This document shows positions 1,300 to 64,000 of a stretch of 64,000 nt of DNA, piece after piece; position 1 is the stretch's first letter; the number at the start of each line of letters is the position of its first letter. Both the position numbers and the translations under genes were made by a program. Under the pieces are notes generated by a model. The model did not search any database and had not been told where the DNA came from. It worked only from the letters and a program-made list of their open reading frames with translations. Source of the stretch: Owenia fusiformis (taxonomy: Eukaryota; Annelida; Polychaeta; Sabellida; Oweniidae); contig CAIIXF020000007.1 of assembly GCA_903813345.2 (NCBI GenBank), positions 35,432,538-35,496,537 on the forward strand. The letters are read 5' to 3'.

Positions 1300-4200
1300 C
1301 TGAAATTATAAAATGCGTGACTAAGCCATTTTTCCAGAATTTAAATGGGTTGATGGTTGATATAAAATGAATGATTTGCCTATGATACAGATAATTATTC
1401 ACCACAAGAAACTACTCTTTGTTTTGTTGTTTACTTTTTGTGTTAGATTAATGTAACGGCTAATCTGTATGCAATACACTATTGACAATAGATGGAGTTA
1501 ATGTTGTACTATATACCCCATTGTACTTACTAGTTTTGGAGGGAGTCATTGAACTGGAAGTCACTATGGGTCTTGCGGTTGTTATTGTTCGAGATGCTGT
1601 GGAATAAGTATCTTCAAACGTAGAGCCAAGAATTGTAGTCGCTGAGTATGTAGTATTGATTTGGATATCAGTTGCACTACCAGCTGTGCTCTTGGCTGTA
1701 CCTGTTGCATCACTGGTAGTTGTACCATGTAACGTTGTTGAGTCTGTGGTACCAACTGTATGATCGGATGTGGTTGCTATTGTGGATGTATTAGCAGCAG
1801 ATGTAACCAGAGTACGTTCCGTATTGATCATATCATCTGTGGTTTCAATTATGAGATCGAATGTTGTTGCTCGTGCTGTTGCATTACCAGCAGCTGTCAC
1901 CGGAGTTTGTTCTGTAGTAGTTAAAGCATCCGTTGTTCCAGCTGTGTGGTTGGATGTTGTTGCTCTTGTTGTTGTATTAGCAGTAGAAGTTGGTTCTGTA
2001 AAGATTGTTGCATTTGTAGTTTCGGCTGTGTGGTCGGGTGTACTTGATCCATTTTCTGTATTAACAGAAGTTACTGTAGTTGGTTCTGTAAAGATTGTTG
2101 CATTTGTAGTTTTGGCTGTGTAGTTAGGTGTACTTGATACTTTGCCTGTAATAGCAGCAGATGTTACTGTAGTTGGTTCTGTAAAGATTGTTGCATTTGT
2201 AGTTTTGGCTGTGTAGTTAGGTGTACTTGATACTTTGCCTGTAATAGCAGCAGATGTTACTGTAGTTGGTTCTGTATAGATTTTTGCATTTGTAACTTCG
2301 GCTGTTTGGTGAGATGTCATAGTTCTTGTTGTCATACTCGTGACAACTGTCTCAAATATTACATCAATAACACTGATACTTTTCCTTGGTGGAATCCCAT
2401 CATCTTCAACTGCAACGTGAATAGCTTGTTCGCCAACCAAGGAATCAATATATTGAACTGCTGTGATTACACCACTTTTACTATCAATTTGGAAGTAGAC
2501 GGAATTTTCAACCAAGCTGAACTTGATACCATCACTGTCTGTATCAGTTGCAACAATAGTTGAAATATACTGTTTGTCATATATTGGGAGTTTAACCTCA
2601 ATTGATGTGATTGACTCATTCACTTTTGGATCATGCTTATTGAGGGGACCAACAATAAATGTGTAGTTGTGAAACAACTGGTCTTGGACCCATGGACAAT
2701 GGTCAAACAAATGTCCGAATAGTGAATCCTCTACATGCCATGTCATCCATGCATTTTCGGGTCTTATAAGTTCCTTTCTGTCATGTCTTGTGACCTGAAG
2801 TAAGTGACTGTCAGCACCTAGTTGAATATCATGCTCAAAACGTACATACAGCCAATCAGTACAATTCCAGTTAAGAGGGACATTGACGTACATGTATTTA
2901 TACTCTTTACCTGACCAATGTTTGTTCACTCTTTCATATGTTACATTCGGACTCACGAACACTGGCTCTTTGGATTGGTCCTTGCTATTGTAAACAACAT
3001 CAGGCATGTCCAATACATCAAGTTCATCATTAACAAGGAAATCCCGGAACCCGTCATCAGACTGTGTCATATTATATCGCATTCGAACCAGGTGAATCAA
3101 GTCATGATATTCGAGTACATCTAACACCGAAAGTTCAGGGTCACCCAGGGGATTAATATTTTCAAATGTGGCAGAATAGTTGAAAAATTTTCCTTTTAGA
3201 GAACATTCCAGAAGCCAGCGGGCAGTCTTTGTTTGATGAGGCTCAATATTGCCAAAGTCTATCGTCAAGGATGGTGATATATCTTCATGTCCCAACTGTG
3301 CTGCAATAATCTTGAATGACACCAACAATCCCTTTTCATTTTCTATTATCTTAGGTTGAGCTGAAGTTATCTTAAATGCTTTTGCAACGCCATTACCTAC
3401 ATTTGTTATCATAACAGCCAAGCTAAACGGAATCGAGGGCTCAACTACAAGCTCTGTAAATGGATCATCAGCCTCTACATATTTCTCATGAAAGTAATGA
3501 ATATGAAGTCGTGGGTCAGGTTTCACAGTTACACTATCAGCAAGCAGAGGGGCCGTGAAATTGGATCCATCTACCGAGTAGTAGAACATACCACCAATAT
3601 CGTACACGACATCTTCCGACGGTGCAGCTGTTGAGTAAGGTATTATCAACCATTCAGCAGTTCCAGAAATTCCCTCAGCCAGACTTCCAAAACCATCCAC
3701 TGAACTAATACCACTTAATTCTGGATCACCTGACAACAAGTAATGACAAGATACAACTACAAAAGACCATTGATTATGCATGTCACTAAAATAAAAATGA
3801 AGAAGCAATTTTACTTTATCACAATAAAGGATACTGAACATGAGAATACCTATGGCAAAATGTTCCATCATATATTTCTGGTTAACATCTTGTGATTTCC
3901 AGATGTAAATCTCCACCTTGATGTGTTTTAGAGGAGATCCCTCGCCATTTTCAATCTCAAGCTTTCCATTAAATGCATCTCGTGTTAGAACTGCCTCTTG
4001 AACTATTCGTATTCTCACTCTAGCACATACGCCATCTTCTTTCTGAAAACCGATCATTGAATAGTTTATACGTTATGACACACGAGGCATTAATTAGTAC
4101 AATTAATTCGTTAATGTTATTCTAATTACTGATACACCTCATCTGGTGTATATGTAATATTTTCACGTACCTTTTTATTTTCAAACTCATCCCTAACAGC

Positions 4201-7200
4201 CACGTATGCGTTGTCAAACTCAGCAAACACGTTATCGAAACCTCTCTGAAAAGTAAATCCAATTGCTAAATTGGGTTTCCAGACACATTTAGCATGAATG
4301 AAAATTTGTTTGTCAGAAACTGACTCACCTCTACAGATTTTTGGTGCTCCTCTTTAAATTTATGCATGGTGGTTTCAAGCATTGATTTAGATATAATATC
4401 AAGATTTGGCGATGGTTCCATGACACCATTTCTCCAGGAGTTAACAGAATTGTTCCATCTCCGGAGGAACCCAGACACCAACATATGATGTGTCTCATTG
4501 ATGTATTGTAATACATTCGACGATTCGTTTAACGATAAAGATGTTCCTAGGTCACTGTTGTCAGATATACTCTCTTCGAACTTTTGATACCATAGTCCAA
4601 GACCAAGATTGAACCTATTGAACACGGATAAGAAGCCGTTGCATGATTTTAGAATTACAGGGTGTCCAATAAATAAGGCGAAAGATATTGTAACTTTCTT
4701 AATATTGGCACTAACCTTGATGAAATTTTCAGAGTTTGTAGCCCAAACCTTTTTACCTTTATTCTGTGAATTTAAAGCATCTTCTATTTGATTGGCCAGA
4801 GTTGTGGTTGCTATAGCAACCGAAAGAACAAAAAGGCGGGGCAAGTTTGTTTACGTCACAACTTTTCAAAACATATTTATTTTTTTTATTTTTTCTGATA
4901 GCTTTATTCATACTCCCAGGTCTATTACTACAACAAATACAATATAAAAACAGCCCTAAAGTCCCATTGTTATGAAAATAAGCTATTCAACATATTATAA
5001 TGTCCATCTCTAGCTATACACTTCTTATGCCTATTCACCAACTCTCTAAACACACTTTCAAACCCATTCTTGCCCATGTCCTGAAGTCTTCCTGAAGACA
5101 TTTGATCTGAGTTCACACACAGCTATGCTCACTAGTGAAACTATTAGGGCACTGGGGCTACCCCTACTTGCACACCCTCCATATTCCCCAGACCTTGTAC
5201 CCAATGACTTTTACTTATATGCAGAACTCAAACGTGACTTGAGAGGAAATAAATTTGGAAGCACTGATGAACTCCGATCACATGTCTTAGCAAGACTTCG
5301 GAAATGGGCGAGAATAGGTTTGAAAGTGTGTTTAGAGAGTGGATGAAAAGGCATAAGACATATAAGAAGTGTATAGCTAGATATGGACATTATGTTGTGC
5401 TATACATTATGTTATGCTTATTTTCATAACAATGGGACTTTAGGACTGTTTTTATATTGTATTTGTAATAGACCTGGAAGTATGAATAAAGTTATCAGAA
5501 AGAATAAATATGTTTTGGAAAGTTGTGACGTAAACAAACTTGCCCCGCCTTTTTGTTGTTTCGGTTGCTATACCAACCACAACTCTGGCCAATCAAATAG
5601 AAGACGCTTTAAATTCAAAGAATAAAGGTAAAAAGGTTTGGGCTACAAACCCTGAAAATTTCATCAAGATTGATGCAATATTAAGAAAGTTACAATATCT
5701 TTCACCTTAATTATTGGCACCCTGTACAGGTTTAGTGATTTTTGTCATTTTTAAGTATTTTCATTAATAAAGAAACAAACGAGTATGAACGCTAAATTTA
5801 TCCTAAAAGTTAAAAAACAATAGCCAGCCAACGGATGCTATGCTTACATTTCTATGTTTCCATACAAATGGTAGGAAAGTTGATACATATCATAAACTAT
5901 GGAATTAACTTTCGCCATATTGACATGCACATCCTCAATTGGTGAACGTCTTCTTCTAGTTCCACCTTCTGTCGCTTCGGCATCATTCAATTTCGGACAC
6001 TCAGTAGTGGCGACATGTAAACAGCTACAAATATTTTTAAAAAATAACAATATGATGAAGTCATTCTTTCATGAAAAAGATAAATATCACAAAATATATG
6101 TAGCTGTCTGGAGATAGCAACGATGCCAGACAAACTACAATACATTGTCTTGGCATGAACTTATGGGTAAGCGTACTTAAAGTGTAATAATCGAGGTATG
6201 AAAACATACCCTACGGATTGTCCAATAGCACCAGGTAAGCAATCACCTCCGATCTTAAGGGCATTGTTCACAATGCTTTCTCCCGCAGCTGGTTCACCTG
6301 TGTTATGAAGGACTTTAAAAATTACATTGATACTACTTGAGCAACCTAGGTCTTTATGCTATACTCTATAAACATGTTAACACTAGACCTGGTAAAATGA
6401 TATTAAACTAAGATGTTGAGATGGAATTGAATAACAAATTTAAAAGTGATGGCCAAAACTAGCATCTCGCTTTGCCCAGTTACTATTATGATTTTTATTG
6501 TTCTTTCAATTATCAAATAGGCGAACCGACTAGCATACAGAGTAATTGTCAAGATTTGTGAAAGTGATATCCAATAGGTTTGGACATCAATCACATTTAG
6601 GATTACGCGTCATTATGTAAGATATATCATAAACTACATACCTTGTTTCTGAAATATTCCCTTGTTCTCATCCATTCTAGTTTTGATACCACGATAGCCT
6701 TCTACGCCTTGCAAAGCTTTTCTATAGTCACCGTGATCGATATACTCCTCCCCCGCTTCTTTCCACTTCTTTTGGTTGATCAGGTCCTGAGTCTTTGGGC
6801 CTAAATCACCCCTGTATAAAGCGTCTACTATAGCTCCCTGGAGCTCACTGGGCATTCTTTCAAAGTCATTTATGAGCCGTTTTGCAGTTGGTATGTATTT
6901 CTCGTTTAAATCACCCTTAATCAAAGTAATGCTTGTTCAAACGTTTAGGTTATGTCTGACAGATGAATTCTGAATGAGACCTAGGCAATAACTTTCCTCG
7001 TTGAAAATGTACAGGCCATTTCTGTGATCTTAATTTTTTGCCGACGTAGGCGATATTTTTTTAACAATTTCAACTAAAACGCGTCGAAAGAAAAAAAATA
7101 CAAAAATATAAAAACCTGAAACAGCTTTCTGGCTTGAGGATCAGTCAGGCTTAATTCTTTTTTAAAGACCTTATCAAAATCAACATCGGGAAGATGCTTT

Positions 7201-10200
7201 TTCCAATCTTCTCTTGCGCCATCTCTTTCCATATTGAACCCTATCCCTAAAAACCGCATAATATTAGATTTACGTCTAGCCTACAAAATGCCCATCTGAA
7301 ATTTGAGAGTGAAACTACTACTATAGTTTGATTATTGATAGCCTGAAATGTGCAAATTCCTTTTTAACCTTGGCGTGGAACCCTACATCAGGGAATTCGA
7401 ATAATAACGTTCAAATCTGAAAAGACCAGATTGAGTAATGATTTTGGACAGTCATATCTTTCACCATGAGTACTTTCTGGCCATACAATGGATTTTATTA
7501 AAACAATGTGTTTTCTTTCAATTAAAGTCCCTATGAAAATAAAAACATCAACCAACTCTTTGAAAAAGTATGGATTAGGACTCCATATTGTTACTTTTTA
7601 AAAGTATAAGAGTCATTTTATAAACAGAGGATCCTGTTTTTTCAATTCAAACATACCAAAAGTTTCTTCTACACTGTATTAACTTCTAAAAGGGAATGGG
7701 GATTGAAACGCGGCAAAATTAAAAACCACATAACCCTTGTTATTTTCCCACTTGTACTATCCATTGTTTCCAGCATACTTTGGTCATCGAAAATTGATAT
7801 CTTCAAAACTCGACATTCAAAATCTAAAATCGATTGCCATACTAAACCTGGTCCTTTCATTGTATATGCACTTACGTTTAAATCACCTTAAATCGAAGTA
7901 ATTATTGTTCAAACGATTAAGTTATGTTTGACTGATGAATATGGCACAGAGTTGTGATTTGTTGTTCTATAGAAAAGCGACTTACCAACCGTGACAAATG
8001 ATTTAGAGTCTTCATAAGCTGTGGTTCTGATCCCTTCGTGTGGTTCAATATAAGAAGCAATCGTGTCGATATCAGCGCCTGTATTTGTCAAGCCTTGATA
8101 AAAAGAATAATTGGGATATTCTAGGATGATAAAATTTTATGTTTTCTGTTCACTTCAAAGCTCCATTCTAAAATTGATCATCGTTCTTCTCGATGTTGCC
8201 TTTATAAATCGTACGTGCATAAGTCAGATAATTCACAATTGTTAAGATTGTTTATTGATTTATTGACTAACCAAAATTCATTCATCATCCCTCATTGCCA
8301 TAATATGCGTACAACATATATTAATATATAGGCTATACAAATGTTCCAGTGAATTTTCCTACACTATTGGTTGGCTTTATTACCTGCAGCCTCTCCTATT
8401 GCTTTGGCACAACCATACTTTGAACTAATTGATGCAGCAGCATCTGCCACATCGACAATATCTCTTTTCTTTCTTTTTTGTCGCGTTAATGGATAGTAAT
8501 AGTCATGTGCATGTACTGTTTCTCCATAAAGATCTCGACGCTTACGTCTGAAAAATATATAACAAATGATCATGAATCTGTCACATCAAAGTAAAATAAT
8601 CTCGGGAAAATAATGCACTTTAGTACATTTTACAGATCAATTTGAGAATTAACATACTTGTCACTAGCAATGGCCTCTCCTAGTGCATATGCCTTTCGTC
8701 CAAGGGAATAGAATGGTCCAAATCCCGGCGACATTGGTAGCAGGCAGTCAGTAATTAGTTTTAGGGCACAGTCACATGACATTGGTGTTACAGCTTCATA
8801 GTTACGTACGCTGGTAGAAACAGTTGATCTTCCAGGAACTCCTCCACCTCCTACAAATTACAGTGTGTATGGACACGCTTTTTTACGAAAAAATGGTTTG
8901 GGAAATTACATCAAAGTATATACATATCATATCTTTGCATTGGTCACATTTCCTGTTAATCGGCCTGCGCACGGCGCAAATGTGACCTAGCCATAATTTG
9001 CAGGGCGCATTGTAGGATTTAGTGTCTTGTCTCAGTCACATGACATTCACGTTACATCCTAATAGTTACACACGCTGGTAGATTGTTGTTCTTGGTACAT
9101 GAAGATGATCTGATAGGAACTCCTCTACTTGCTACTTGATACTTATGTATGCATATGCATTTAACATTTTTTGTGGGAAAAGCAAGTGTGTCGTAATAGC
9201 AGTAGTGTTGCATATTTCTCCATTTGCGTAAGCTGACCCAATGTGTCACTTACCTATATAGCCACCCCCTCTTTCTGGTACTTTGTCGCTTCCACATACA
9301 TTAGGTGGAATACGAGACATCTCTTGGCGACGCTGCAGCATGACATCAAGATTATTCGTCCTGAGAACACCACACAAGTAGTCCCAGAACAATTTAATTC
9401 CAAAGGCTAAGCACAAGAGAAAGTTCCTTTTCTGTCTTGGTTTCTCATGAATCTTTATTGGAACTATAAGAGTTGTGTTGGCCTCGATGTCGCCGATGTT
9501 GGTAACTGTCTGCAAAACAACATACAATTGATATAAGATATAAACATAGTAATATAAACTAGTTGTTTGAATATATTCTTCTAAAATGTAAATATGGACT
9601 TCCACCAGAAATCTTAAACAGCTAGACCTGAAACACTAAGATTTTAAAATCTATATCCTTTAGACCAGTTGAGATTTTAAATATTCCTTTATAGACCTTT
9701 GAGCCTAATTCAGTTTTGTTTCTTTCCCTTTTAATTTGAGCAATATTATTTTAGATAAAACACAATGGTGTTAACCTGTTTGAAATCAAGTGTAGGATGA
9801 TTGTATGGAAGTGCAAATCTAAGGTTTTGTGCTCGTATCAATCCATGGTTCGTTATCGTAAATACAATTTCATCTTTTTCCCCCTCTTCCAAAGCAGTTA
9901 GATCTATCTGTCGTGGTTCGATTGTAACAACTGGCATTGGTACCTTAAATGAATTATCATTAAGAATGTAATGATGATAATAGGTCATATAAACAGTAAG
10001 ATGCAAATCTATATATACTCCTTCTTTATTACTTTAATAATTCCTCACCTTGGTTTCAAAAGTTGAATCTAACGTGATAATGTATTTGTCTTCGTACGTA
10101 ACAGGAGTCACAGTCCAGCTATACTTCACTGCCGTTCTCTGTAGGAAAACTGTCACATTTGGGTTGGCTTGAGATGCCAGAATGACAGCACTGTATGACG

Positions 10201-13200: not shown

Positions 13201-16200
13201 ACTACCTGTTTTATTTCCATTTGAGCTTCAAATCTCCTTCCTTCTCGGACGGAAGTGAGATCAACCTCTTCAAACAATGGCGCAATTACTATATCCTGAC
13301 ACAACTCTCCTTCCCAGGGTAGAATACATGAACATTGTCCAAACAAACAAATTCCATGAGGTGGTGTTTCATTTCGTCCACAAGCACTGCTAGGACATGT
13401 AGGATGATACTTGAATGTAACCTAGATGGATGAATTTAAAAATATATATCGATTAGTCATAGAATTAACAATCAACATAATACTTATACCATAAGTATGT
13501 AGAAAAAAAACATATGTGAAACCTACTCTCTCATTTGTCAATTCGCCTCCTGGTTGTCCAACATTGACAGCAACTAAGCCAACTTGCTTTGGACTAATAC
13601 ATCGCACATGATCACGTGATAGCCACTGAGCAATAACATCGATATTACCGAAACGGCATCTATACTGACCATCACTACTGTTCTCAAAATTATGCCCGAA
13701 TACGTTGACCAGAGTGCCACCTATATCAGGCCCTGTTGACGGGGCAACAAAGAGAACTGTTGGCAGAGGTAAACAGTAAGGCCCATAGAATGTTCTGTTG
13801 CACTCATTGCATAGCTCCCCGGCCCACTTAATTGATGAGCATGTGCATCCACCTAAAAAATATAAAACATGTATGATGCATGATACATACAAATTTGATA
13901 TCAAGATTTTCAAAACTTTTCCAAATTAAAATGATTTTATACAGCAGTTAGTCCACACACGAGTAGCTTATTCCAGTCACCTGATATTTCGTCGCAGTAT
14001 CCATTGACGCATGGCGGGCATGGCTCGCAATCCTGACCCCAATACAAATCTTGGCATTGTGAGCAGTCATTCCCCGCATAGGAAGAAAAACATGAACATG
14101 TGTCTGGTTGCAAACAGTATCCTCTTCCTGAACAATTGTTTACATTGTAGCATGTTGCATCTGCACAGGTCTCTCCAGTCCAACCCCCAGTGCATTCGCA
14201 AACATTTGGTCCAACACAATTGCCATTACCATAACAATCAGAGACCTTTAGATGATCAATATTAGAACACAATTAATATTATTGTATAGACATCATAGTC
14301 CTCTTTTTTATAGAAGAGCTAAGATGTGATATTTCTTACATCCGGTTGATATTGTTTCGGTCAATCGCTTTGTTCACTTAATGTGTTCTTAACTTCTTAC
14401 CACTCAATGAATTTGATGGGATATGTTTCAGTCATTATACACATTTATACACACAGAGCATAGAATATAGGATAAGCAGTATATTGTATATTTTTTGTAT
14501 CAATTTTATGAAGCTACGGCCGCCGTAGAGGAAATGTAACCAAGGTTTTACGCGCGTATGAATGTAACAATTAAGTCATTCATGTCTTCCTTCGCAGTTA
14601 GCTAAGTTTTCAACATTTTTAATCTCAACTGACAGTAGGGAAATTTCGACATAAGAAACATACCAAGTGGTCATTACAATGCAATGACACGTAACTATCC
14701 GAGGTTCTCTCTTACCTGTTCACATGAAACCTGATTACATTCTGCCCCCTGCCAGCCATCTGCACAACGACATCTATCAGGCCTAACACATTCACCATGG
14801 TTAGAACAGTTGTTCACAGCAAAGCATGTAAATACTTTTCCTGATAACATTTGAACGTAAACTACCTCTGCAGCATTAATAGCATCTTTTTTATCAAATA
14901 TGCGTTCATCAGCATATGCTTCTACTGCACTTCCCCACCAGTTGTACGTAGCATTTATGATGTCATCGCCATTATATGCGACATAAAGCTCATAAACGCT
15001 CGACGGGTTCTCTAGTATATTGTAATGCATCGAATAATTCCCGGACGTTGTCCGTATAATGCCATGCGATGCAACGTTATCAGTGAATACGTTATCAGTT
15101 AGTGTGCCTCGATTATTTACTGCGTTGTCTGGGTGTAGGTAAACCATTGTTAGACCTTTGTTTCTCGAGAACTCATTGCCGACGATGTGGACGTCACTTT
15201 TGACTGTCCGGTAATCGTATTGATAATATATTGGATGTAAATCTATAAGATTGGAAGACCCTTTATTGTATTTTATTGTATTACGTTGAATGTAAACATC
15301 AGTTCCTTTATGTAAATCAAGACCCATAAGAGTGTCACTGTTGTTGCGAAATATATTATTTTGGATGTTGATCAACAGATTAAAATCATTATAATGCGTT
15401 GCAGTAGTTACTTTTACAGCATGTCGTGAATTTTCCTCAAACACAGAATCTTGAATTGTCATAGTAACTTGCGACCGGGAAGAGCCAGCATAGCTTTTAC
15501 CCATACCTTCAACGTAAATTGCATATGTATTTTGCCCATGCGTATTCCTGAATATACAGTTTATAAAGGACAGATTTAACGGATACTGGAAGTAAGCACC
15601 ATTCCAATTATTTGAGTCAAATGTTACACCATCCATTAACACAAACGCACTATAAGCTGCTTGGATCCCATAATAAGCTGAATGAGATATCGTTCCATTG
15701 CTAAAGATCAGTCTCACACCATTTTTCCCCAAATGTACACCACTCATACCAGCCCTGTCAACAACACTACCTGTCATATCGAGATATCGTAAAGTCTGAG
15801 ACTTTATATGTATGCCATTCTCCGTTGTCTGACTTATCCTGCTATCACGAAAAATCATACTACTTCCAAAACTATTTTCTTCAAAGTAGAGTCCAGTGCC
15901 AACGTCTTCAATGTGCACATTATAAGCTTCAATTGGGACATCGTTTATCAGCATGCCATATTTTGATCCAGTTATGTTAACATGACGAACAGTAGATGGT
16001 TTAGGTTCTAAACACACATTATAACAATCATATACTAATCAGATGCATCGAGCGTTAAGCAGTCACTCTATCGCATATTAAAATGGATCAGAACAGATCA
16101 AGAAAATTAGTACTTTTATATGATTTTATTTTGTAGATTATACTTTAAAGAATAAGAAGGCTAGAAGCTGAAAATTCTACCTTCACAATCTGCTCGTTCA

Positions 16201-19200
16201 TAGAAATCAAACGCTTTTGTATTGTTGTTCCACTTTGAGGAATATATTTCCGATCTTGATTTGTCACTCAGTAGACAGTAGCCATCTGACTCCCTGTATT
16301 CTACTGACTTGCATACATAGGTTGCCGTTCTACAGCGATGTATACAGTACCATCTTTCCCAATTGTAGTTTGCCTCCCTTTTGATTCCATCGATTGAAAA
16401 ATTCTTAATCATTATAAATTTTGTCCCGTTTTTACATGCTGAAATCAGGTCAGTGTTACTGTTAAAATGAAAGTGGAACATTCAGTTTTTCTCAATGTAT
16501 GATTTTTAAAACGCACAAATTATTGGATGTACCCTACTATCACACCAAACTAGTTCTCACTACGTTCTCCAAAACGGGCTTCAACTGTGTACGAACGGAC
16601 TGGACGTACTTAGAACCGTCTGGGGTCTATTTACAAACTTCATCGAACGTACTTGAACGGGTAGGTCCTCTAGAATTTAGAACATGCTCAGAATGCTCTC
16701 GTGGTCCTCACGTTCTACAATTAGAACGAGTGACAACGTACCATAGACTAGCTGGACGTACTACGAACGGAACCGTCGTACTTCAATCCTACTAGGGACG
16801 TTTTTACAACGAGTTGAACTGTCTGACGACGTATTTAGAACGAGGTAGAAATAATCGCAAACGGGTTTAAACTGATTGAGAACGTATTAAAGACTGCTTA
16901 TGAACGAGTAAACAAAAATATAGCTATCACACCAAACAAGTTGCCACTGCGTTCTTCAAAACTGGTGTTAAACTGTGTACGAACGGAATGAACGTAGCTG
17001 CAACTTTCTAAGGACTATTTGCGAACTTCGTGAACGTTCTCAGACGGGAAGGTGATTTTAGAATTTTGAATCGATTCAAAATTCGATGGCGACCATGCCG
17101 TTCTGTAATCAGGTCATGATGACCTTCTAGACTAAGGGACGGTTTATACTACGTTGCACACCGACGTGGTGCGACCTGAACGAACTGCGAATGAGATGGA
17201 CGTATTGAAGACTGTTTATGAACGAAGTAGCTAATTATTTTAGACATATATCCCGACCGCAGCCAGATTGAGCCCGTTTTACGACATTTTCGTAGGACTG
17301 GCAAGAACGGGTAAGAACTAGTTTGGTGTTATAGGGGGGTTATACAAGGAATTTAGTTAAGCTTATTCATTAAAATGAACAACAATATAATTGGTTGTCA
17401 GTTGGTGTTAACCTTCTGCCGCTGTCCGCTGAAATACTATGCCTTCCCATTGAATGCTTGCATCTTTTCCCGAAAGAATTACTTTTCTATCAGTACTTCC
17501 ATCAATGATAAGACGACCTGTTTTAAAAGAATTGTAATATTTCTTACAATCTACATTTTCAGGGGTCTTATGTTGGTTAGCTAATGTTATTCTCAATTGA
17601 TACATGCTATAAACGTTGTATATATCCTCATGCCATGATATCATTTAAACTATTCTTATTAGTAGCATTTTAAGACCATTAGCCAAGGTTGGCTCACTAT
17701 TTACAAAATGTTTTTTGAGGGTTACTGTTTTAGAAATGTCGTTAAATATACCTTCAACGATGATTCCTTGTGTTTTTTGAAACTTTAAGTGCACACCCCC
17801 TTTCAATGTCAGCACAGCACCTTCTCTATAAAATCAACCAAACAAAACCAATTTTAGAAATTTCAAAGATAAAATGGGGCAAGACCACAAGACCATATGA
17901 TTACTCATTCACTCTGAAAACCATTACGAATCATGCAGAAGAATAGATGACCAATGCAATTGACATTAAAATAATTGTAGACAATATTCATACAAGGGAT
18001 AGCATTCGTCTCTAAACATCCTTGGTTCAAGGACATTTCACATCTTGACATAATCTGTTGGTACGGGGAAAGCTACTAGTATTCTGAGATCTTATTTGTG
18101 GTAGTGAAGATCATTATGGTGCTTGTTTGAGCCCACACTTCAAGGAACCTGTTTCTTCAATGTAATTTAAGACTACTTGATTCTTTGCTAATTTTACTGG
18201 CCAAAGGCAAAAAACAGAATTTTTCACCCACAAATGGGCCTCCCAGTTCGGAAATAAAAGACATGGACTTTTCAGCCCAGCCTGTATAACTCCTCGCACA
18301 TTTCCGGTTAAACAAAATAGTACACGAACAAGGCACTTTGACTTTAAATAAAAAGTGGCATTACATACCCATTCTAAACGAAATAGTATATACTACACCG
18401 TATGCCTACCTTATATATATTGATCGTTTCACATAGTATGGCTCAGTTCTATATTCCACAACGACGTTCTGAACTACATCCCCTCCAAACACTGATGTCT
18501 CAAAAAACTCAACATCATTATCTTCACTGAACGCAGTAAATTCACGGTTGGTTGCGTATGGTTGAAAAAACAGTCGATTCAGATTAATGTTGCTATGGTG
18601 ACTGTTTAATGATTTCAGTATTTCACTAAAGTTTCTGGGCCCCCAGTAATTTTGTTCAAAATGATATCCTCTTAATGGTTTTCTCGTGGCCGAACTTACT
18701 TCATAAGCTGTAATGGGGTTGTTAAATATGTTGTTGTGTGCTTCTACTCCATAAATATTTTGACTTAGATCGATGGAAGTTGCAAAATTGTTATTTTCAA
18801 ACACATTGTACTCCAGTCGGAGTCTCATACTTCGGGAGGGATTGTGCCAATTATACGGAGCAAATTTTAGAAGGCTTTGAGCTGTGTTGTTCACAATAAC
18901 ATTTCTCTCTAAGTCAAAGTTAAATGATCCTACGTTGTACAACGTTCCATAAAGTATAAAGGCACCATTTCCAAAATGTGCATTGTTCCCTTCTATGTAG
19001 TTGTCGTGAAATAGAAGTCGTGTCTTGTCACCAACATATTGCATGAACAAAATTTCACCTTTGTTTCCAAGCAATGTATTATTTCTCAAAATTACATCGG
19101 GCTGACTCCCGTATCCCCTGTGCCCATAATAATGAATCATTCTTTCTCCAGTATTGTGGATAAACCTATTGTTCAGGAAAAACACGCCATTGTATTTTGG

Positions 19201-22200
19201 TCCATTCGGATTGAAGTAAAATGTACTATTTGATGTATCCGACGGAATGCCATTAAAAGCAACATTGCAGTCTCTGATAGTGCAATTGAACTCCGATTCT
19301 GATGCAGGTTTTGAGTATAGAGCTCCGTGTTTGTTTTCTATCATTTCTGTAGACCCAATATACAATGATGATGTTGAAAGGGATGAGTGCACTCCGCCAT
19401 ACATGTTTTCAGTCAATACACTATCAATCACTGATATGTTCTGATTTGAACCTGTATAATATAGCCCGAATCCTTGATTTTTGGTTGACACTATATTAAT
19501 GAATTCAACATTTGACATTCTGTAAGATTTCACCTTCCAAAACAATCCATTGGCATGATTTTCAGATGTTTTGATATTTTGCAACAAAGTTTCGGATATG
19601 TTCCTTATCACATAAGGCTCATTAAAGGTGATTCCATTCTGACTTGAGCCAGATGACTCTACATCTTGAAATACAGAAGGCATGATTCCTGTAATGTGAA
19701 GACCAAGAGTTGTATTAACTAGGTACACGTGTTTCAATGTTGACACTTGGTTAACACGTGCTGTACTTAATGAACCACCACAGGTGATACCAACATCCTC
19801 ATTGTGCCTGCAGGAATGGCTTCCAAAGCCTCTGTGTTTACATTCAAAAAGGGTAGCCTCACCTCCGTCACAATCCATGTCATCTAACCATATAGGGCCA
19901 GTACCACCACCAACTGTTCTGAAAGTTGCTCCCTCTTCCCTCATACCTTCAATTAATGCAACGTACATGTACATGTCTTTCATAAAATTCCGTTTATTAT
20001 ATAAAGTAGTATATAACAAATGTTTAACAAGGTCTAGCTCAATAGAAAGTGTTACATACCTAGATGTCTACAGGCAACCTTAGCATCGTTTATATCAAAC
20101 CAATCGTCACATACAGATCCCCACTGGCCATTATAGAATACTTCAAGTCTCCCCGATGTAGTTCCACCTACCAATCGAAGTTGTCCTCCTTCGTTTGCAA
20201 CTAAATCTTTAGTAAAATGAACTCAATGTCAGATACTGTATGGAAGTTATGGAATATTGTGCTATCTGCTTTAATTTCAATATCCATACTTAACTTACCA
20301 GTCGTGACACTTATACCCGCCCACTTTATGGCAGATGTCCGGGGAATGCATTGTATTTGTTTTCCTGCCGTTCCATTCATGTGGATTTCACCTCGAAATA
20401 GATAGAATTAAGTTCAGCATAACAAATTTTCAAAACCTTGAAACTAGTTTATCTCATTTGGGCCATCGACTAATATGCTAGAGGTGTCACAGTTTCCCGA
20501 TATTGGACCGAATTTCGGTCCAGATGCTTCGGTTCGGGACACGGAACAGAAAGGGTTAATATCGGTATGATATCGGTACATAAATTCCTTCCCTAAAATG
20601 CATAAAAACGTGAATGAATAGCGAGGAACACCTCCGATTTCGTTCTAAAAAATAAAATATGTCACTTACCTCATACCTAGATTACACTTCTTTGCATTGA
20701 AAAGTGTTCTTAACGGACCCGCGATTTCAGGTAGATGCTAATGCTTGTTCTTAAATGTCTTCATCGTCGTTCGCAAATTGAGTGCATTATCAGTATGCCA
20801 GATGTAGAAAAGAAATTGAAAAATCGAGCCGGTGTGAAAGAAATTATGGTCCCTCAGAGATTACGGTCCCTCTTTTAAAGGCCCTTAGTGGCTCTGATTG
20901 TGTATAAGATAATGAGGGAAAGAGTTGTATTTAGGTCACCATATAAATCAATGGAGAGTAGGATCATAATTTGATAGGACCTCCTACCCTTTTACACCTG
21001 CATCTAAGTCGAAAAGGTCGGCAGTTTGGAAGTATTTTGGGACTTTGATATAACAAGGTAAACGAATTGGTGATATTACACCATGCAGATTATGTCATGC
21101 CGAACAAATTCGCGACAGATGCGTTATATTAGATTTTAATTGACGTTTTTTTTTATTTCTGTATATGATTTTGAAAAGTGAAACTGCCATCATCAGACAT
21201 TGCATCATTTTTCTTTAATGTTCTGTCCCGTCCCGAAAGTACCGTGTGCCGAGACCGTGACCCCGCTAAAATATGCCCTGAGATCATTATTAATGCCTGA
21301 CTACTCGTATGAAAACGTGTTTTTCATGGAAACTAAATGATGTTAAAATAACAAAATATTACTTTTACATATTCGAAACAACTAGCTCACCTTTTACTCT
21401 AATACCAATGTTCTCAGAAAATCTGAGTACAACACATGGTTCAATAAGCAAAGAAGCCTCCTCCATAACTACAATGTCTGACGCGACGTTATATGGACTG
21501 TCATCACATCTGAGAGTTACGTTCCCCGTAATTTCCCCTCCAATACTTCCATCTTGTCTAAAAAAGTCTTCTTCAATTGACACGTCAGAGTAATTATGTG
21601 AGAGAAGATACGGACGAATGTCTAATACACCAACGGAAGGGTCTCTCTTGTTGTCATATATGCTTGCCGATATTTGTGACTGCTCTTTACTGCCCCACCA
21701 GTTGAACTTAGAATTTATATCATAGCTGCCTTTTGGAGAACTTACCTATAAACATACATATAAGTGTACAATTGTTAGTCCGAAAGCGCCTTGATCATGT
21801 TAAATGTATTGAAATGAATCTCAAATCAAATAAATATAAACATTATAAAACTTACAACAAAATAATATACCTTTACGTTGTAACTATGTTCTCCAAGAAA
21901 GTTATCAAACAAGTTGTAGTTCAACAATGTGCCAGATTGGAATCCTTGGAGGGTAAGAGCGTTGTTGCTGTTATTCAAGAAGACGTTGTAACTGATAGTA
22001 CAGTTATTCACTGTGCTGGGATTAATTATGACATTGTCGCTTCCAAAGTTATAGAGGAACCGATTATTCATGATTTTCGTGCCACTTGTGAAGTCAGATG
22101 TCAGAGATAAAGCTCCGTTACTCTCGGAAATTACGTTACCAGTAACATCAACGGTTCCAATTCCGGCTTTCAATCCAATGTCACACGCTACACGACCCAT

Positions 22201-25200
22201 ACTATGTATAATGTTTCCCTCTATCATGATTGAAGAGAAATAATTGATATTTGATAGTACCATAGCAGATGTTTGCTCTGATTGATATGTTGATCGAAAT
22301 GTGTTGTTGGCAATTTCTATAAATGAGGCCTTTTCAAAACCGGATCTTGAAGCCTGTGTATTAATAGAAACCATTCCGTAATCGTAGTAAGAATTGTGTT
22401 GAATAAATGTATTATTGTATATTGAAATAGTTCTTGATCCGTAATTGGTCCACATGGTTTGGTATTGCACACCAAAACCATATCGGTTGATAGTTCTTTT
22501 GATGATGCTGTTTCCAAGCTCAAACATACCATAGCTAATGTACGCATAAATAGCATATGATGAGTATTCTGAAATTTCACAACCACGAAGCTGGACATTT
22601 GTGTGACTACTAACTCCATTGATATACACAGCTCCACTACCACGTGTGTTACGGATGACCACGTTCTTCATTGTTAAGTTGAAATCTCTTATGATTGAAC
22701 CTGACGTTTTGAGGTAAATTCCAGTTTTAGTAGATGTGTCTATCGTACTGTTAGTAATATCAATATTGAGGTATTCGGTTATGGTATCCGATACATATAT
22801 GGCATAGTCCGTGTTTGTGATCGTTACACTTTTAAGAGTAATGTTCCTGCCTGGGCCGTGAATACCATACGTGGAACCGTCTAGCTGAACATTATTGAGA
22901 AAGAGACCTTTAAGTAAGAAAATAAACAAGTTACAATGGTTCTCAGAGAAAATAGTAAAATGAACTGATTTTTGTTTATTACGTAGTGAAATACTGAAAC
23001 AATAAGGCAGAGGTGTCATTATTGCTTACCCACAGATGACGGTGATCCTATGCGAATTCCTCCCCATTTTCCAGTCGGATTCTTTCTTCTCATCGATGTA
23101 ATACCATGATTGTCACCCTCTCTGATGACAAGTTCACCTACATCATAATCATATATGTATTTATGTTACTCCCCATATCAGCCAATTGAAAATTTGACAA
23201 AAAAAGATAAAATAAGTATTGGTTTTGAACAGCCTTGGGAATTCGAACCGATATACGGTATAAGTGAAATATCTAAAGCGAAATAAAAAATACGATATAA
23301 GTTTAGACTGATCATTTGTCGATATCACATTTTTGTAATGAATTATATAATATAATCCTGTGTTATCCCAGAAATGGCCCGATTTAATGTTTTTAAAGCC
23401 ATGACGAATAACAACAATCACTCTAGATGGATCGATAAAGTAAAATAATTAAAGAGCTTACCAATTATGTAAATTCCGATGCCTTGGTCAAAGGCAAGTT
23501 TAACCCCAGAATCTATAGTGAGAGTAGCATTTGGAAATATAAAGATGTTGCGCCGAACGTGATAGGTATGATTAAAGACATATGGAATTGTTTCGTTGCT
23601 CAATAGCACGCCACCAATACCACCCGTTGCATCAGTAAAGTAGAAATCTACTTTTTTATCTTCATTTAATTCAGTAAGATTGCGGTCAGTGTAAAAAGGT
23701 GACACGGTGACATGTGCAAGATTCATATCCCTATTGTTCCCACATGCTCTATGTTTCACATCACCTGGATCAGACGAGCCCCAATAGGAATATGGGGCAT
23801 TAATTATTGAGTCTGTTTTAGATACAGAAACATATAATGCACATTGATCAACGCTTTTGAATCGTTCGAAGGAATTGTTTGCCATTATGAAATCATCCGT
23901 GTTTATCCATAGCCAAGTGGATGCAGAAATGTTTGTAAATTTGTTTCTGACAATATGTACTCTACCATTAGTCGAACTAAATAACTGGACATCGATGTAT
24001 CGACTATCAGCTCTGTTATTTTCCATTATATTGTCTTCTATAAATAGGTTTGTATTGTGGAAGACCCTGACCAACATTGATTTGAAGCAGTTGTTGAAGA
24101 CATTATTTGTTATTCTTATATTCAATTCAGACTGTTTGTAGTTAGGCCTATTCCCTATTTGCAACGCGGGATAAGAGGTTGATATGTCCTTGAACGTGTT
24201 TCTTTCGATGAGTATTTCTTCTCCATCAAAGTAGTATGGATCGAAATATAAGGCATGGTATTGGCGACTATTTACTTCTCCCGCAATAGAATTATTTATC
24301 AGTAAAAAAGGCCCACCTCTGTAATTATCATCTGCGTAATAATATATTGTGTAATAGTAGTTATCTTTCATTTGTGTGGATTCAATAGTGGTATTCCCAC
24401 TTATTCTGTAAATATAGAGCCCATTATTCCTATTTCGCAGGATTTCTGACCTGTGTATATTGATATAACCTACAGTTTGAAACGTTTCTAAACCACTTTT
24501 AGCATTGTGCGACAACTCCGAGTCCTCGATGGAGATATTTGCATGGGTGTCTCTGCAATATATGCCGGAGCTTCGGCTGCCCGTTATAATAGTCCGAGTG
24601 ATTGATAGAAAAGGGTGGACAGGGCTCCCTTTAAATTCAATACCATGCTCGCCATTATTTCCTATGTATGAATCAGATATCATTGTCAAGTTTGCGGATG
24701 ATCCTCCGTCGGTGTACTTGATCCCAGCTGCGCATTTTGTGATGGTCACGTGATCTAGAGTTACGGAGTAGCCTGTTGCTTGAATACCCACATTTGCCCC
24801 TTCTACATATACGTGTTTCAATGATGAATCTACAAAGATTTCAGCCGATTAAGTATAAAGATTCTAAAAGTAACGTGTAACTTGTATAAATGGATAAATG
24901 CAATATAATACTAATGGCACATACCAAAACACTTTATTTTAGTTATATTTTATCAAATAATAATTCCAAATAACCCAAGATATTTAACCAGAAAGAAGTC
25001 ATTTAAACTTACGACCGGATACAATTTTTAGTCCTGACCAATGCGAGGAAATTTCAGAGACGGCATCATCCGCTGTGAATTCAACAGGAAGATTATCGAT
25101 CCCTTGAGCTAAGAGATTACCTGAAACAGGAATTCGAACTGTAACTACAGTGTCTTATGTTGTGTATAAGAACAAAGTTTAATATTATGGAAACATATGC

Positions 25201-28200
25201 CCAACGTTGGTTCAATTTCTCCAACATTTTTCAGGAAAACAAAACAGCATACCATGAACGTCAATTCCAGCTTCAGCTGATGTGAAGATAATTTTGACGC
25301 CTGGTTGAATCGTAAGAGTCCCACTTGGTCTAATGGTAACTAGTCTTGATACAATGTACGGACTGAGGTGTAAGAATAGGACCTCCTCACCCTACAAATC
25401 ACAAGTAATGGTATAAATATTATAACACATAATACAACAAATGTTTCGGTTCTTCATGAAAATGAAATCATCGTAGATATCTATAAAGTAGAACATCCAT
25501 TGCTTCGCTCACTGGTGCAACTCGTCGATAAAAAAACATCACTCAAAATTATATACCGTACGTATTTGAAAATTTTAAATTATAATGAATCGACACAGTT
25601 TTGCACCATGAACCCTTTTCAAGGGACGCTTCCAATATTTCACACCTTCCTTTCGTTATTGATTGTGAACAATATCAAAACTAATTCGGATTTAGTTTTG
25701 AGATTGTTCATCATTATAACACAATAAGTTATCGAATGACTTTAAGTGCAATACAGGATATATTTTGCTCGAGAAATTCTGAATTTGTACGAGACAAAGA
25801 CGAGTGACAATACGGAATATCGAGAGCACAATACAAGGAGCGATCTATATATTCTGATAAAAATGCTCTCATTTTGTGAATTTATTCACATATCCCTTTC
25901 ATTTTTTCAGAACATGTAGATTATGTAATTACACATACGATGCTAAAATATTATATATATATCTTAAATTAATTTTAAATAGGGTTGCCATGGTAACCTG
26001 TATTTAGGGTAGGCAGGTCAGTTAGATTATAACGTATAAAATAGATAAATTTGTTAATTTAATCATTTCTCGGTACCTATTTTAAGCAGATCAAATGCAT
26101 CTTCCAGTCATTGCCAACTATTTATTGAACTGTTCCATACCCCTGTTGCCCTTTGTTTGATAATTTACACAGTGGGATAGCTATCTTTTCATAAGTTACA
26201 TCTCAATTTATCGTTATGTTAGTCTCTGTCTGCAAGCTCTTCTTGCAACTAGATTGTGGATGATGTTCAACAGTGACAATGCCTTCCTCTTTACAGTACT
26301 ACCTATAGATTCTTTATGCAGATATCTAGTAGCACCTTTTCCATACAGTTAACGAGTCCATGTATGTCTCTGACAGTGTCCTCTCACTTCATATTGATAG
26401 AAAATAAAATATAATGTTATTCCCTAATGTATCTGTTAATGTCACACTCTGCATCAGCCACATTAACCTCATCTGACATTTTGATTTTTGGTGTGCCTCA
26501 TGACATGAAATGTCAATTGGCCCATTCTGTCCTACAATGCTATTGCTGTGATGTTATAGTGAGCTCAAATAAACATTTGTTTACCCCCCTATCACACCAA
26601 ACTAGTTCTTACCCGTGCTTGCCAGTCCTACGAAAACGTCATAAAACGGGCTCAATCTGGCAGTGGTCGGGAAATATGTCTGAAATAATTAGCTTCTTCG
26701 TTCTTAAACAGTCTTCAATACGTCAATCTCGTTCGCAGTTCGTTCAGGTCGCACCACGTCGGTGTGCAACGTCGTAGAACGCGTCCCTTAGTCTAGAAGG
26801 TCAACATGACCTGATTACAGAACGTTATGGTCGCCATCGAATTTTGAATCGATTCAAAATTCTAAAATCACATTCCCGTCGGAGAACGTTCATAAAGTTC
26901 GTAAATAGACCTTAGAAAGTTGCAGCTACGTTCATTCCGTTTGCACACAGTTTAAAACCAGTTTTGAAGAACGCAGTGGCAACTTGTTTGGTGTGATAGC
27001 TATATTTTTGCTAACTCGTTCATAAGCAGTGTTAAATACGTTCTTAATCAGTTTAAACCCGTTTGCAATTAGTTCTACCTCGTTCTCAACACGTCCTCAG
27101 ACAGTTCAACTCGTTGTTAAAACGTCCCTAGTAGGATTGAAGTACGACGGTTCCGTTCGTAGTACGTCCAGCTCGTCGTTAGTACGTTGTCACTCGTTCT
27201 AATTGTAGAACGAGTCGACCACGAGAACATTTTGAGCATCGTCTAAGTTCTAGAGGACCTACCCGTTCGAGTACGTTCGATGAAGTTTGAAAACAGATCC
27301 CAAACTGTTCTTAGTAGGTCCAATCCGTTCGTACACAGTTGAAGCTCGTTTTCGAGAACGTAGTGAGAACTAGTTTGGTGTGATAGTAGGGTTAGCAACG
27401 AACAACGAGTAACAATACCAAACCTTTTTAGAAAAAATGCATGATTTCCGCATGCATTAAAATAATAAAAATAGCAAATTTTTATGATGTTTTATATGTT
27501 ATAATTCAATTGACCTGCCTACCCTTAATACAGGTTACCATGACAACCTTATCTCATAAACAATTTAAGATGTAGCTATAATATTTTAGCATTGTATGTG
27601 TAATTACATAATCTACATTTTCTGAAAAAATGAGAGGGATATGTGAAAAAAATCAAAAAATGAGGAGATTTTTTATCAGAATATATGGATCGCCCCTTGT
27701 ATATCCTGTATTGCACTTCAAATAATTATACGTTTTCATCTATGATCTTAGGCCAATATATTTTCACTTATAAATAATGATAATCCCTAAGAAATATTCT
27801 GTGTAGCTCTGTATAGTATGTACTGCTACTGACATTGTCCCCTCCGTACAAATATATTCTGTATTGCTACGGATATGATCAATGGGGACAATCTCAGGAG
27901 CAATATGGACTGTTACAGCAAAAGAACTGACCAATCAGAGGGCTTTATTTTACAGATCATACAATTACGTTATTTATTAGAATTACTTACCAAAATATCA
28001 CTTTCGATGTGTGTGTATTCCTTTTCCGACACTGCCTTTCGACACCCATAGAGCTCCATTCGTATACCGGGGCGACTATTCCACGTTATGGGAAGGATGC
28101 GAAAATATCTTGCCTTTAAGTACATATATATAGTCAATTTCAATATTCTCTGACAAAGATGGTTCCGATATGTTGATAGTTCGAATAATATTTCCTTTAT

Positions 28201-47338: not shown

Positions 47339-50300
47339 ATAGTAGATGGGTTAACTGCATTTTAGGGGGTCTGGACTTCAATCTATGATGCAAACGTTTC
47401 CTTTGACATGAGAGTACCTTAGGACCATAGAATCAAATTTATCCAAAGACACACGCCAGATGGCGCTTTATATTGGAAATATTCAAATTTTTCAAAATGG
47501 CCGCCAAAAATACAACGGAGACAATATTTTTTCTTCTATGCATACTATAATGATACGATTGGTGCCTAAATATAAATTTTGTGGATGAAGAATCAATTTA
47601 GTATGGGTTTGAGTCTTGAAAATTAGGAACTTCCTCTTTACATAAAAAAATTATACCTTTTTCAAAATGGCTGCCAGAGATGTAACAAAGATGATATCTT
47701 CACTTGTATGCATGCTACAATAGTAAGATTGATGTCCAAGTATACATTAATGGGTGGTAGAATTCATTTGATAAGGTTTATAGTCTTTATTATCCCAACG
47801 AAGAAAGTTCAGTGGGGATATAGTGAAGCCCTCCATCCGTCAGTCTGTCAGTCCATTATCTGTCTTATGCATGATTTTGCAATTATTTTCAGATTCCTTC
47901 ATCAGTCAGTCCATCGTCTGTCTTATGCATGATTTTGCAATTATTTTCAGATTCCTTCAAAGTATGGCCATATGTACTCAATTAAGTTGAATATGGTGTA
48001 AATTTTATGATTAATGCCTCAGAAAATTCAAAATGTTCCAGAGAAGGAGTTGATTAGCTATTACTTACTAGATATGCCGTCAAGGTATGGTTACATTATA
48101 TCAAGTTAGATCTCAATTTTTTTATTGTCTAAATATAATTTTTAGCATTGATATAATGGTCACCAAAATGTTTAAATCAGCAGAAATTCTGATATTGTAC
48201 TGTGTGCTAGTAGTTAACAAACATTTTCACTTTTTATTGAAAATGTATGCCTTTTTTCAATGGCTGTCGAAAATATTTCAAAAAAAATATATCTAACAAG
48301 GGCTCTTAAACTTCTTCAAAAGTAGAATAGTTTGAAAGTGTAGTTTTGAATATCAATTTGCGATGACGGAAACTATGCTGAAAACAATGGATAGCATGGG
48401 AGATGTGGTTTTCAACTTCAGCGCATTCCAAATACCGTCCCCTTTTAAGTAATTAATGATATAAAAGTGAGGAAACTTTTGATATGTTTAAATTGAGAAA
48501 AAACAAGATCATCTTTTTACAAAATAAGTTTAACATTTTAAAAAAGTGCCAAGATGGGACCCTAATCCATAATTTTCCAGAAAGTTGGATTCAACTTCAC
48601 TTGAAATAAAACACATTGTTTTAATAATAAACACTGTATTTATGGCCAGGAAGTACTCATGGTGAAAGACATATTGCCGTTTAAAATCTTAAAATCTTAA
48701 TCTCTTAAATGTTCAAATGAGAAAATAAGAATATTTTTCTCAATATGACAATATTCAGTGCTGTGTGTGTACATACATGTCTTTTTCAAAATGGTTGCCA
48801 ATCAACAAGCTTAATAGTTTGTTGGTTGGATTAGTGGAAGACTCGGTAAACAGAGACATCGTCCATGATTTGGTCAGAGGAGATGAAGAGGGTTCTGCAA
48901 TACTGTCATAATCTGCAGCCCTTGAAATCAATTCCGATCTTCAGGTTTCTGGCCCTTTCTAACTATAGGTACATATGTATGTCTGTCCTGCGTGGTTTCT
49001 ATCTATCACATTTCTCTCTTATGTATGTTACATTGCAACAACTGCAACATTGCACTACCATTGCAGATGCTTGTTTATTGCAAGTTATTAAAGAGACACT
49101 GGTCTTTCTGGTGAATTTGGGCAAAAAGAACATTGAAAGATAAATACACATTTGCTGTGTTAATGCGAAAACGATTATTTTTAAGGATCATAATCCAATT
49201 TGATAAATGCGAGTAGTAACAATCATTATTTTTGTCATTAAAAATTCAAAATTCAGTCTAACTGATGTTGAATTTGGAATCGTCATAAAAAAATACATCA
49301 AGAAATGTGGTTTAGAAATGAGTCCATCAACTTAAAATTGAATTTTCTTCGGAAATGTGACATTTAGGTCAGGGAGATTCCCCATAGTCCCCATGTTGTA
49401 AAACACAAAAAGTGAAATATCTTTTCTTGTGTTGTGCAGATAATAATTTTCTTTAACTGGTGATATTTTAATTTGTACAACTATCAGTTACAAAAGAGTA
49501 ATATGAAATGTGAACCACTAAAAATTAAAAATGTTCAAGTTTAATGGAACTTTGTAATACCCTGCAATGTTATTTCACCCGAATTAACCACCTGGTGGGG
49601 AAAATGGTAACTACCTACTTGCATCTGAGTAATTAAATAGATTTTACATTCCTAAAAATGTAGATTTTGAAGCCAATTTTATGAAATATTATGCCCAGAA
49701 GTAAAGAAACTTTGAGCAAAGATTTTTGTTAGCAAAGATACAATCTTTGCTAGCAAAGGTACAATCTTTGTTAGCAAAAATACAATCTTTGTTATATTTT
49801 CAGCTGCATATATTGCCAATATAAAGTGAAAACTATAATCTCACAAGACTTAATAAAATTGATTCTCCTACCCCATAAATATAATATTTTGACACCAATC
49901 GTATCAGGGTAGCATGCACTGATGTGAAGATATCATTGTTATATTTCTGGTGGCCATTTTTAAAAACATAATTTCCTATAAAGTGAAAATTCTTATTATG
50001 AAAGACCTATTTAAATGAATTCTACAACCCAATATTAATGTATACTTTGATACCACTCTTATCATTGTAGCATGCTTATATTTCTGGCAGCCATTTTGAA
50101 AAATGCATATATTTTGAATATAAAGTGCAAGTGCTGAATTTACAAGACTCGAAACCTAGTTAAATAGATTCTACAACTACATTAATGTATTTTTGACACC
50201 ACTCTTATAATTGTAGCATGCACAGACGCAAAACTATTGTCTCTGATGTATTTTTGGGGGCCATTTTGAAAAATGTGTATATTTCTAATATAAAGCGCCA

Positions 50301-59120: not shown

Positions 59121-59487
59121 TTAAACAATGTCACTAGCATTTGAACTTATTGCCAAAACTCGAGGACAGGAAAGGAATTAGTAATTTTTTAAATGTATTG
59201 AATTACCTCGAGTGGCATCTTGTTCTACGATTGCCAAAAGCAAAATGAAAATCATTACAAACACAGAGGAGCATTAAAACTTATAAATAAAATAGTAAAA
59301 ATAAACAAATTCGAGACTGTGCTTGTACCAGGCCAGCCATACACATAATGCATCCCTATTTTAGTTACATACTCATAAACCTGACGGACATTGACTGACC
59401 ATACTGACAGCCAAACGATTCCAAATAACAAATGTCTTTATAACACCCTCTCCTTTTTTGGAGAAATTGCAACCGTGACACTTGTGT
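59121..59487. other. Non-coding flank of the array
   Basis: No gene or repeat recognised between the array and the inverted repeat; short chance frames only. Confidence 0.5.
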
Positions 59488-63400: not shown

Positions 63401-64000
63401 CTGTTTAATTCTTACCTTTATCAGCTCCCAACATACCCTTTTGGACTTGAATGTTTTACTTTCTTGATTTATTTCTTTGAGGTATTTTGATATATTGTTA
63501 CAAAAATCTTGATCTTCTAATAATGAGTTGTTAAGTTTCCAGTATCCTTTCCCTCTCTTATTTCCTAATAATCTTATATCTGTTATAACTGCTTTATGAT
63601 CTTTTTTTAATGCTTGGAGTATATAGCTTTTTTTAATTTCAAGTCTGTTGTTTTTTGAGATAAAAATGTAATCAAGTCTACTTTTACTTTTTAGGTTTTT
63701 GGTACTATACGTAAAGCCTATATTTTTGTTTGATTTATTATAATTTTCCCACGTGTCAATTAAAGTGCAGTTTTCAATAAAATGTTTTAGACTCTGTCTA
63801 CTTTTATCATTTTGATGATATTTTTCTGTTGTTGGAAATCTGTCAGAATCTCTTAAAGCACAGTTGAAGTCACCACTTATTATAATATTACCTTCTATAT
63901 GCTTATTACTTTGAATCCAACTATTAAGGTTGTCTAAGAATAATTTTCTACAGTTGCTTTCATTTGGTGCATAGATTGATATTAAAGAAAATATCGTACC
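60395..64000 (-). mobile_element. Non-LTR retrotransposon (L1/Tx1-like LINE), degraded, 5' end off window
   Basis: Read on the minus strand. An APE endonuclease is visible (about 64000-63550: S-I-Y-A-P-N, S-G-D-F-N, S-R-L-D-Y-I-F-I-S, D-H-K-A-V), then a connecting region, and a reverse transcriptase (62818-61694: N-Y-R-P-I-S-L-T, Y-L-E-K-R, L-D-F-K-K-A-F-D, R-Q-G-C-P-I-S, Q-H-A-D-D-T-T-L-I, L-G-I-Y-I-G). A zf-RVT knuckle follows (C-S-K-C, H-L-I-F-E-C; about 60900). Three lesions are seen: a stop at 62861-62863, a frame change near 61725-61745 and another near 61285. The usual Y-A-D-D is H-A-D-D. The 3' end is an A-run followed by TA repeats at 60395-60430. It is therefore a dead copy; ORF1 would lie right of the window. 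Confidence 0.85.

Follow-up and report, generated by a model that had tools for sequence, protein, structure and literature searches.

Can an enzyme of bacteriophage type become part of a giant animal receptor? This question is raised by a 64,000-nucleotide stretch of the genome of the annelid Owenia fusiformis (assembly GCA_903813345.2, contig CAIIXF020000007.1, positions 35,432,538 to 35,496,537; hereafter, the window), in which an earlier note, made from the letters alone, had placed a T4-lysozyme-like domain inside a very large cell-surface-type protein. According to the present analysis, a three-exon module encoding a GH24 (T4-type) lysozyme has probably been built into one of seven copies of a giant receptor gene, giving a putative recognition protein with a predicted muramidase.

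The lysozyme domain is encoded on the minus strand by exons A, B and C, which lie where the earlier note had put them and join in frame (Table 1). The V-T-V-G-I-G strand, described there as restored by splicing, is rebuilt at the A/B junction from G on one side and GG on the other. The spliced 160-residue domain scored 22.7 bits against the Pfam family PF00959 (Phage_lysozyme; curated cut-off, 22.3 bits), and this generic model is borderline for the domain. Its identity can nevertheless be regarded as settled because two closer relatives match, namely, the Owenia protein P0001 (64% identity, E 2.6e-60) and P0003, an environmental protein tagged with PF00959 (41% identity, E 5.4e-24). T4 lysozyme was the top match by sequence in the PDB (E 0.0013). 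The Glu, Asp and Thr residues are all kept, with the same spacing (9 and 6) as Glu11, Asp20 and Thr26 of T4 lysozyme, and the predicted structure of the paralogue P0001 has the T4 lysozyme fold. Taken together, these data support the phage-type assignment by sequence for the window domain, and by predicted fold as well for P0001. Comparison with the closest paralogue, Lys3 on C11, over 163 codons gave a nonsynonymous divergence (dN) of 0.146 and a synonymous divergence (dS) of 1.33 (dN/dS ~0.11); therefore, the lysozyme domain is under purifying selection.

As for the surroundings of this three-exon cassette, the minus strand here carries a single long gene, of roughly 4,800 codons, with FAMeT, F5/8 type C (F5/8C, discoidin), beta-helix, SRCR, PAN, EGF, TIG, mucin and transmembrane (TM) parts. 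The Methyltransf_FA (FAMeT), F5/8C, beta-helix, SRCR, PAN, EGF and TIG domains exceed their Pfam cut-offs, so that the partner domains claimed earlier for the lysozyme (SRCR, with 94.0 bits, PAN, discoidin and FAMeT) are real. The 4,984-residue protein P0007 of Solemya velum aligns in the same order from window position 25412 to 1517, and this domain order, colinear with orthologues, places the host gene in the family of giant beta-helix/SRCR/TIG receptors. A Thr/Ser-rich repeat array is located at 1988-2305. At 1.2-1.6 kb beyond the window, after an EGF-like piece, there is a strongly hydrophobic TM-like segment with a basic tail; P0007 ends similarly. This segment is a candidate C-terminal membrane anchor, whose exon is predicted to be joined to the receptor.

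The cassette has phases 1-1, the preceding host exon ends in phase 1 and the following one starts in phase 1. With the phases fitting on both sides and the host colinear with P0007, the earlier placement of the lysozyme inside the giant gene is supported. Since the 1-1 cassette sits between phase-1 host boundaries, it could be included or skipped without a break of the frame. The start of exon C was placed at 6915, as indicated by the paralogue P0002 (MGDLNKKFIPT).

The homology-weighted gene model comprises 4,745 residues within the window; this figure is approximate because some read-through remains in the model (around 9635, in 3849-3730 and in 5584-5474, the last inside a mariner-like element). 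The length of over 4,800 residues given in the earlier note is therefore plausible as an estimate, though it is not a measured length. The conclusions drawn here rest only on exons supported by orthologues or sister copies. Exon chains predicted ab initio gave spurious mini-exons and were discarded.

The window copy can be compared with others in the same genome. The C-terminal block of the receptor occurs in seven copies, six on C7 (at ~35.4, 36.7, 37.0, 37.5, 39.68 and 39.69 Mb, mostly along its end) and one on C4 (5.03 Mb), with 82-88% identity to the window copy. The host exon that follows the cassette was found in 6/6 sister copies and the exon that precedes it in 5/6. For these comparisons, hidden Markov models (HMMs) were built from family alignments, the GH24 model (A1) including the window domain itself. 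No GH24 signal was detected by this HMM in the stretches of 10-20 kb examined around each of the six sister copies, whereas it found the three window exons with E values of 1.9e-50, 1.5e-19 and 1.4e-12. In the five sisters with both flanking exons, the intervening intron has phase 1 and is empty, and the single run of N in those stretches is located elsewhere. Because the flanking exons are present around an empty phase-1 intron and GH24 is absent from the sister copies, the cassette was either inserted into the window copy alone or lost from all the others. Purifying selection still acts on the host exons flanking the cassette in the window copy, with dN lower than dS in 29/29 comparisons (for one sister, a match to one of the exons was lacking).

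The age of the insertion could not be read from dS. The dS to Lys3 is 1.33 over the 163 codons compared but differs between exons, being 0.53 in exon B and as high as 2.49 in exon C, and dating on this basis failed; for the window receptor copy against its sisters, dS is 0.58-0.88 (362 codons). The insertion could be older than the receptor copies and have been lost subsequently from six of them. A DNA comparison of the cassette-side introns with the Lys loci and four sister copies revealed no marks of insertion breakpoints. Among the sister copies themselves, the pair located at 36.69 and 36.97 Mb hardly differs (dS 0.035), which points to a recent duplication.

The GH24 family of Owenia was searched for in the 498,259,871-base assembly with P0001 as a query and matches accepted to E 1. 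The 22 matches obtained define six GH24 loci: C6 has two of them, C11, C3 and C5 have one apiece, and the window on C7 holds the sixth. A whole-genome search with the PF00959 family returned 0 matches, since it proceeds exon by exon and single exons of a borderline family fall under the threshold of the model. The exon cores of P0001, P0002 and P0005 read 98-100% in the assembly, with lower values where the alignments overrun exon ends. In P0001, the product of a stand-alone gene on C6, the lysozyme follows a hydrophobic leader and precedes a Cys-rich tail; in the C11 locus, annotated as two partial proteins (P0005 and P0002), it comes after Cys-rich N-terminal exons and is followed by further exons. 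The window lysozyme is a distinct paralogue with 79% identity to its nearest relative. The A/B and B/C splits occur at the same places in all six loci, with the same phases where boundaries were compared; because of these common splits, the enzyme behaves like an exon module that has been shuffled.

Related sequences occur in phages, environmental data and animals. The tblastn search yielded 18 phage records (some of them GenBank/RefSeq pairs), 15 of Vibrio and 3 of Alteromonas phages, with 26-41% identity, several being labelled virion RNA polymerase or endolysin, and a scan of viral contigs gave 14 loci. Among the matches listed, the nearest relatives outside Owenia were environmental GH24 proteins and bivalve proteins (Mercenaria, Mytilus). 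A tree was constructed from 67 rows, 55 environmental and 12 animal or bivalve-like, with the remaining listed matches left out. The six Owenia sequences formed one clade (support 98/97), which may group with the bivalves (81/42); when one environmental row, P0156 of an earlier tree, is added to these, the group has support of 98/82. The tree fits one transfer and several transfers alike.

T4 and marine phage GH24 lysozymes resemble the window domain in fold and in the spacing of the catalytic triad, and differ from it in having neither introns nor an animal receptor context. Goose-type (g-type) lysozymes belong to family GH23. Published work on bivalve phage-type lysozymes (PMC5303276) describes introns, duplications and bacteriolytic activity, fusions with the host genes PGRP, MALRD2 and HSPG, and phage lysozyme genes as free of introns. 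Fusion of a lysozyme with a host gene is thus not new in itself, having bivalve precedents in that source. Like the bivalve proteins, the Owenia family is a spiralian GH24 group of phage origin with introns, duplications and a proposed host-gene fusion, and the annelid domain is placed close to Mercenaria and Mytilus proteins. Unlike them, it occurs in an annelid, with another fusion partner. The oyster protein CgPGRP-L, cited in PMC5877582, likewise combines a bacterial-wall recognition domain (PGRP) with a lysozyme domain in one mollusc protein, but the latter is g-type rather than GH24, the protein is small and the recognition domain is different. The giant receptors of other lophotrochozoans (Solemya velum P0007, Lingula anatina P0021) belong to the same family as the host and are colinear with it over most of its length; however, no GH24 match at E up to 10 was found in 120 large relatives (of 501; 21 with animal names). 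Searches of the open-access literature, which do not extend to subscription journals, listed no annelid GH24 lysozyme. What this case adds is an annelid host, a giant receptor as the partner, a conserved 1-1 module that recurs in several architectures, and six cassette-free sister copies.

The position of the lysozyme in the receptor suggests how it might act. In the 4,745-residue model, there are four instances of the motif R-X-[KR]-R, against ~0.8 expected by chance, with model positions 3221, 3347, 3368 and 3624. As the lysozyme occupies approximately residues 3401-3571, these furin-type motifs cluster around it. The first of them (3221) is probably intronic read-through. The downstream site, RRRR/S, has an RKRR/S counterpart in 6/6 sister copies, and R-X-[KR]-R is present at its place in 11/12 alignable mollusc and brachiopod proteins (18 orthologues were tried in the linker alignment, of which 12 were anchored). 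Because it is kept in both sets, this convertase-type site is ancestral. Cysteines are present on both sides of the predicted cleavage fragment.

These features are consistent with the following mechanism. A GH24 lysozyme from a phage-like source would have been kept in Owenia as at least six loci, and the intact three-exon, phase 1-1 module would have been shuffled into a phase-1 intron of one receptor copy. In the resulting surface protein of ~4,800 residues, the FAMeT, discoidin, beta-helix, SRCR, PAN, EGF and TIG domains would contact surfaces or glycans, their binding to microbes being suggested by the family names, while the lysozyme would cut peptidoglycan through its Glu/Asp/Thr active site, so that recognition may be coupled to cell-wall cleavage. 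Lying between upstream dibasic motifs and the downstream RRRR/S, the enzyme could act tethered or be excised by a proprotein convertase; cleavage at RQKRKKR and RRRR would free a lysozyme fragment of ~253 residues. Alternatively, the flanking cysteines could hold the cleaved piece by disulfides. The product most likely takes the form of a muramidase that stays tethered or is shed, next to domains that bind surfaces, and its role would be epithelial, in defence against bacteria or in their handling. More tentatively, and with somewhat less than even confidence, the phage-derived lysozyme may be viewed as a freely shuffled animal module, which Owenia uses in a secreted enzyme, in another Cys-rich mosaic protein and, in one of seven receptors, as a catalytic insert between convertase sites, that is, a sheddable hydrolase.

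Several observations weigh against a fused, active enzyme. Inside a 1,033-residue stretch of the protein, the PF00959 score falls to 18.6 bits, below the cut-off. Exon C by itself matches T4-type folds weakly (best E 0.88), and the exon B donor and exon C acceptor both score poorly (-1.1 each). The joining of the exons in transcripts is predicted from genomic sequence. Among the matches listed, within length limits that set aside proteins of ~420-2,200 residues, no annotated Owenia protein spans the locus. In addition, Asn stands at the Asp position in the C3 locus (L024) and Tyr at the Thr position in the C5 locus (L026); the family may thus include inactive members, and the activity of any member is not assured. 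Loss of a catalytic residue in each of these two paralogues would also suit a domain that lies within the receptor but is catalytically silent, serving as a peptidoglycan-binding module. Such a role is unlikely for the window copy, which retains Glu, Asp and Thr.

Other explanations do without the full-length fusion. A stand-alone lysozyme gene, or its remains, might be nested on the same strand in a receptor intron and lie outside the receptor protein; stand-alone GH24 genes are present in the genome (P0001 on C6), and the cassette is wholly within one receptor intron. Nevertheless, the 290 bases of intron that precede exon A contain no ATG from which a signal-peptide-like frame runs into this exon, no Cys-rich tail exon is seen, the phases match the host on both sides and dN/dS is low, all of which make a nested gene likewise improbable. 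Slightly less credence still is given to transcripts that end in the intron after exon C and leave the lysozyme as the C-terminus of a soluble N-terminal part of the receptor. An in-frame stop does lie two codons past the exon C donor and would be reached if the donor were skipped; however, this donor is strong (3.7) and the matching one is used in the annotated paralogue P0001. Finally, the surroundings are rich in repeats, which could favour an assembly error that put lysozyme exons into the receptor locus. This is very improbable, as the three exons are in frame and represent a distinct paralogue, and the window contains no N and has receptor exons on both sides of the cassette. Inclusion of the lysozyme in the receptor is accordingly preferred.

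If expressed as proposed, the locus presents a phage-type enzyme incorporated, in the form of an exon module, into a conserved receptor of an animal whose genome also has the empty sister sites. It makes testable both the joining of foreign effector domains to recognition scaffolds and the idea of a receptor bearing its own wall-cutting enzyme, and it adds an annelid, in which the architecture differs, to the bivalves for which phage-type lysozymes have been published.

Table 1. Exons and domains of the receptor gene and its lysozyme cassette, in the order of transcription (window positions)
Feature	Position	Strand	Phase	Basis or remark
FAMeT (Methyltransf_FA) domain reading frame	29921..30244	-		Pfam, 58.8 bits
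F5/8 type C (discoidin) domain	28684..29043	-		Pfam, 54.8 bits
Beta-helix exons, first block	21369..25391	-		Pfam and P0007 alignment
SRCR domain (20200-20060 spliced to 19946), then beta-helix	18410..20200	-		Pfam and homology-weighted model
PAN domain reading frame, exon ends unsettled	16164..16481	-		25.7 bits (cut-off 21.4)
Teneurin-type EGF domains, more than one exon	13981..14826	-		Pfam and homology-weighted model
IPT/TIG domain region	13527..13756	-		Pfam and homology-weighted model
Receptor exon, CDCA segment	8658..8850	-	1 to 2	Kept in mollusc orthologues and 6/6 sister copies
Receptor exon directly before cassette	8384..8547	-	2 to 1	RKRR and RQKRKKR motifs; 5/6 sister copies
Lysozyme exon A	7986..8093	-	1 to 1	Holds catalytic Glu, Asp, Thr
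Lysozyme exon B	7116..7246	-	1 to 0	Weak donor (score -1.1)
Lysozyme exon C	6642..6915	-	0 to 1	C-terminal lobe
Receptor exon directly after cassette	6210..6297	-	1 to 2	In 6/6 sister copies
Receptor exon with convertase-type site RRRR/S	5848..6024	-	2 to 2	RKRR/S in 6/6 sister copies
Receptor exon	4329..4614	-	2 to 0	Orthologue and sister-copy comparison
Receptor C-terminal exon	1531..3729	-		Conserved block, cadherin-like stretch, Thr/Ser-rich repeats

Some further features of the locus were observed. The receptor C-terminal block (1531-3729) has relatives with 40-50% identity in giant proteins of environmental contigs, named bacteria (e.g., Verrucomicrobia) and animals, a spread that suggests old exchange. 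The receptor intron after the RRRR exon contains, at 4600-5760, an element that is mariner-like by its motif; its inverted ends are near-identical, and it has a transposase-type reading frame. Within the cassette, a 66-base piece comprising the exon C start and upstream intron (6903-6968) is repeated with 86% identity in the A/B intron (7875-7940), as if an exon end had been duplicated. The same intron (7247-7985) has a stretch in common with 48331-48672 (70% identity), probably a dispersed repeat. Elsewhere in the window, a 108-base unit is repeated in tandem on the plus strand (56325-59127); its 26 copies are 99% alike, and the array is open as one long reading frame. In addition, the minus strand of 60553-64000 contains long reading frames resembling a LINE-type retroelement, with endonuclease and reverse transcriptase motifs recognized by eye.

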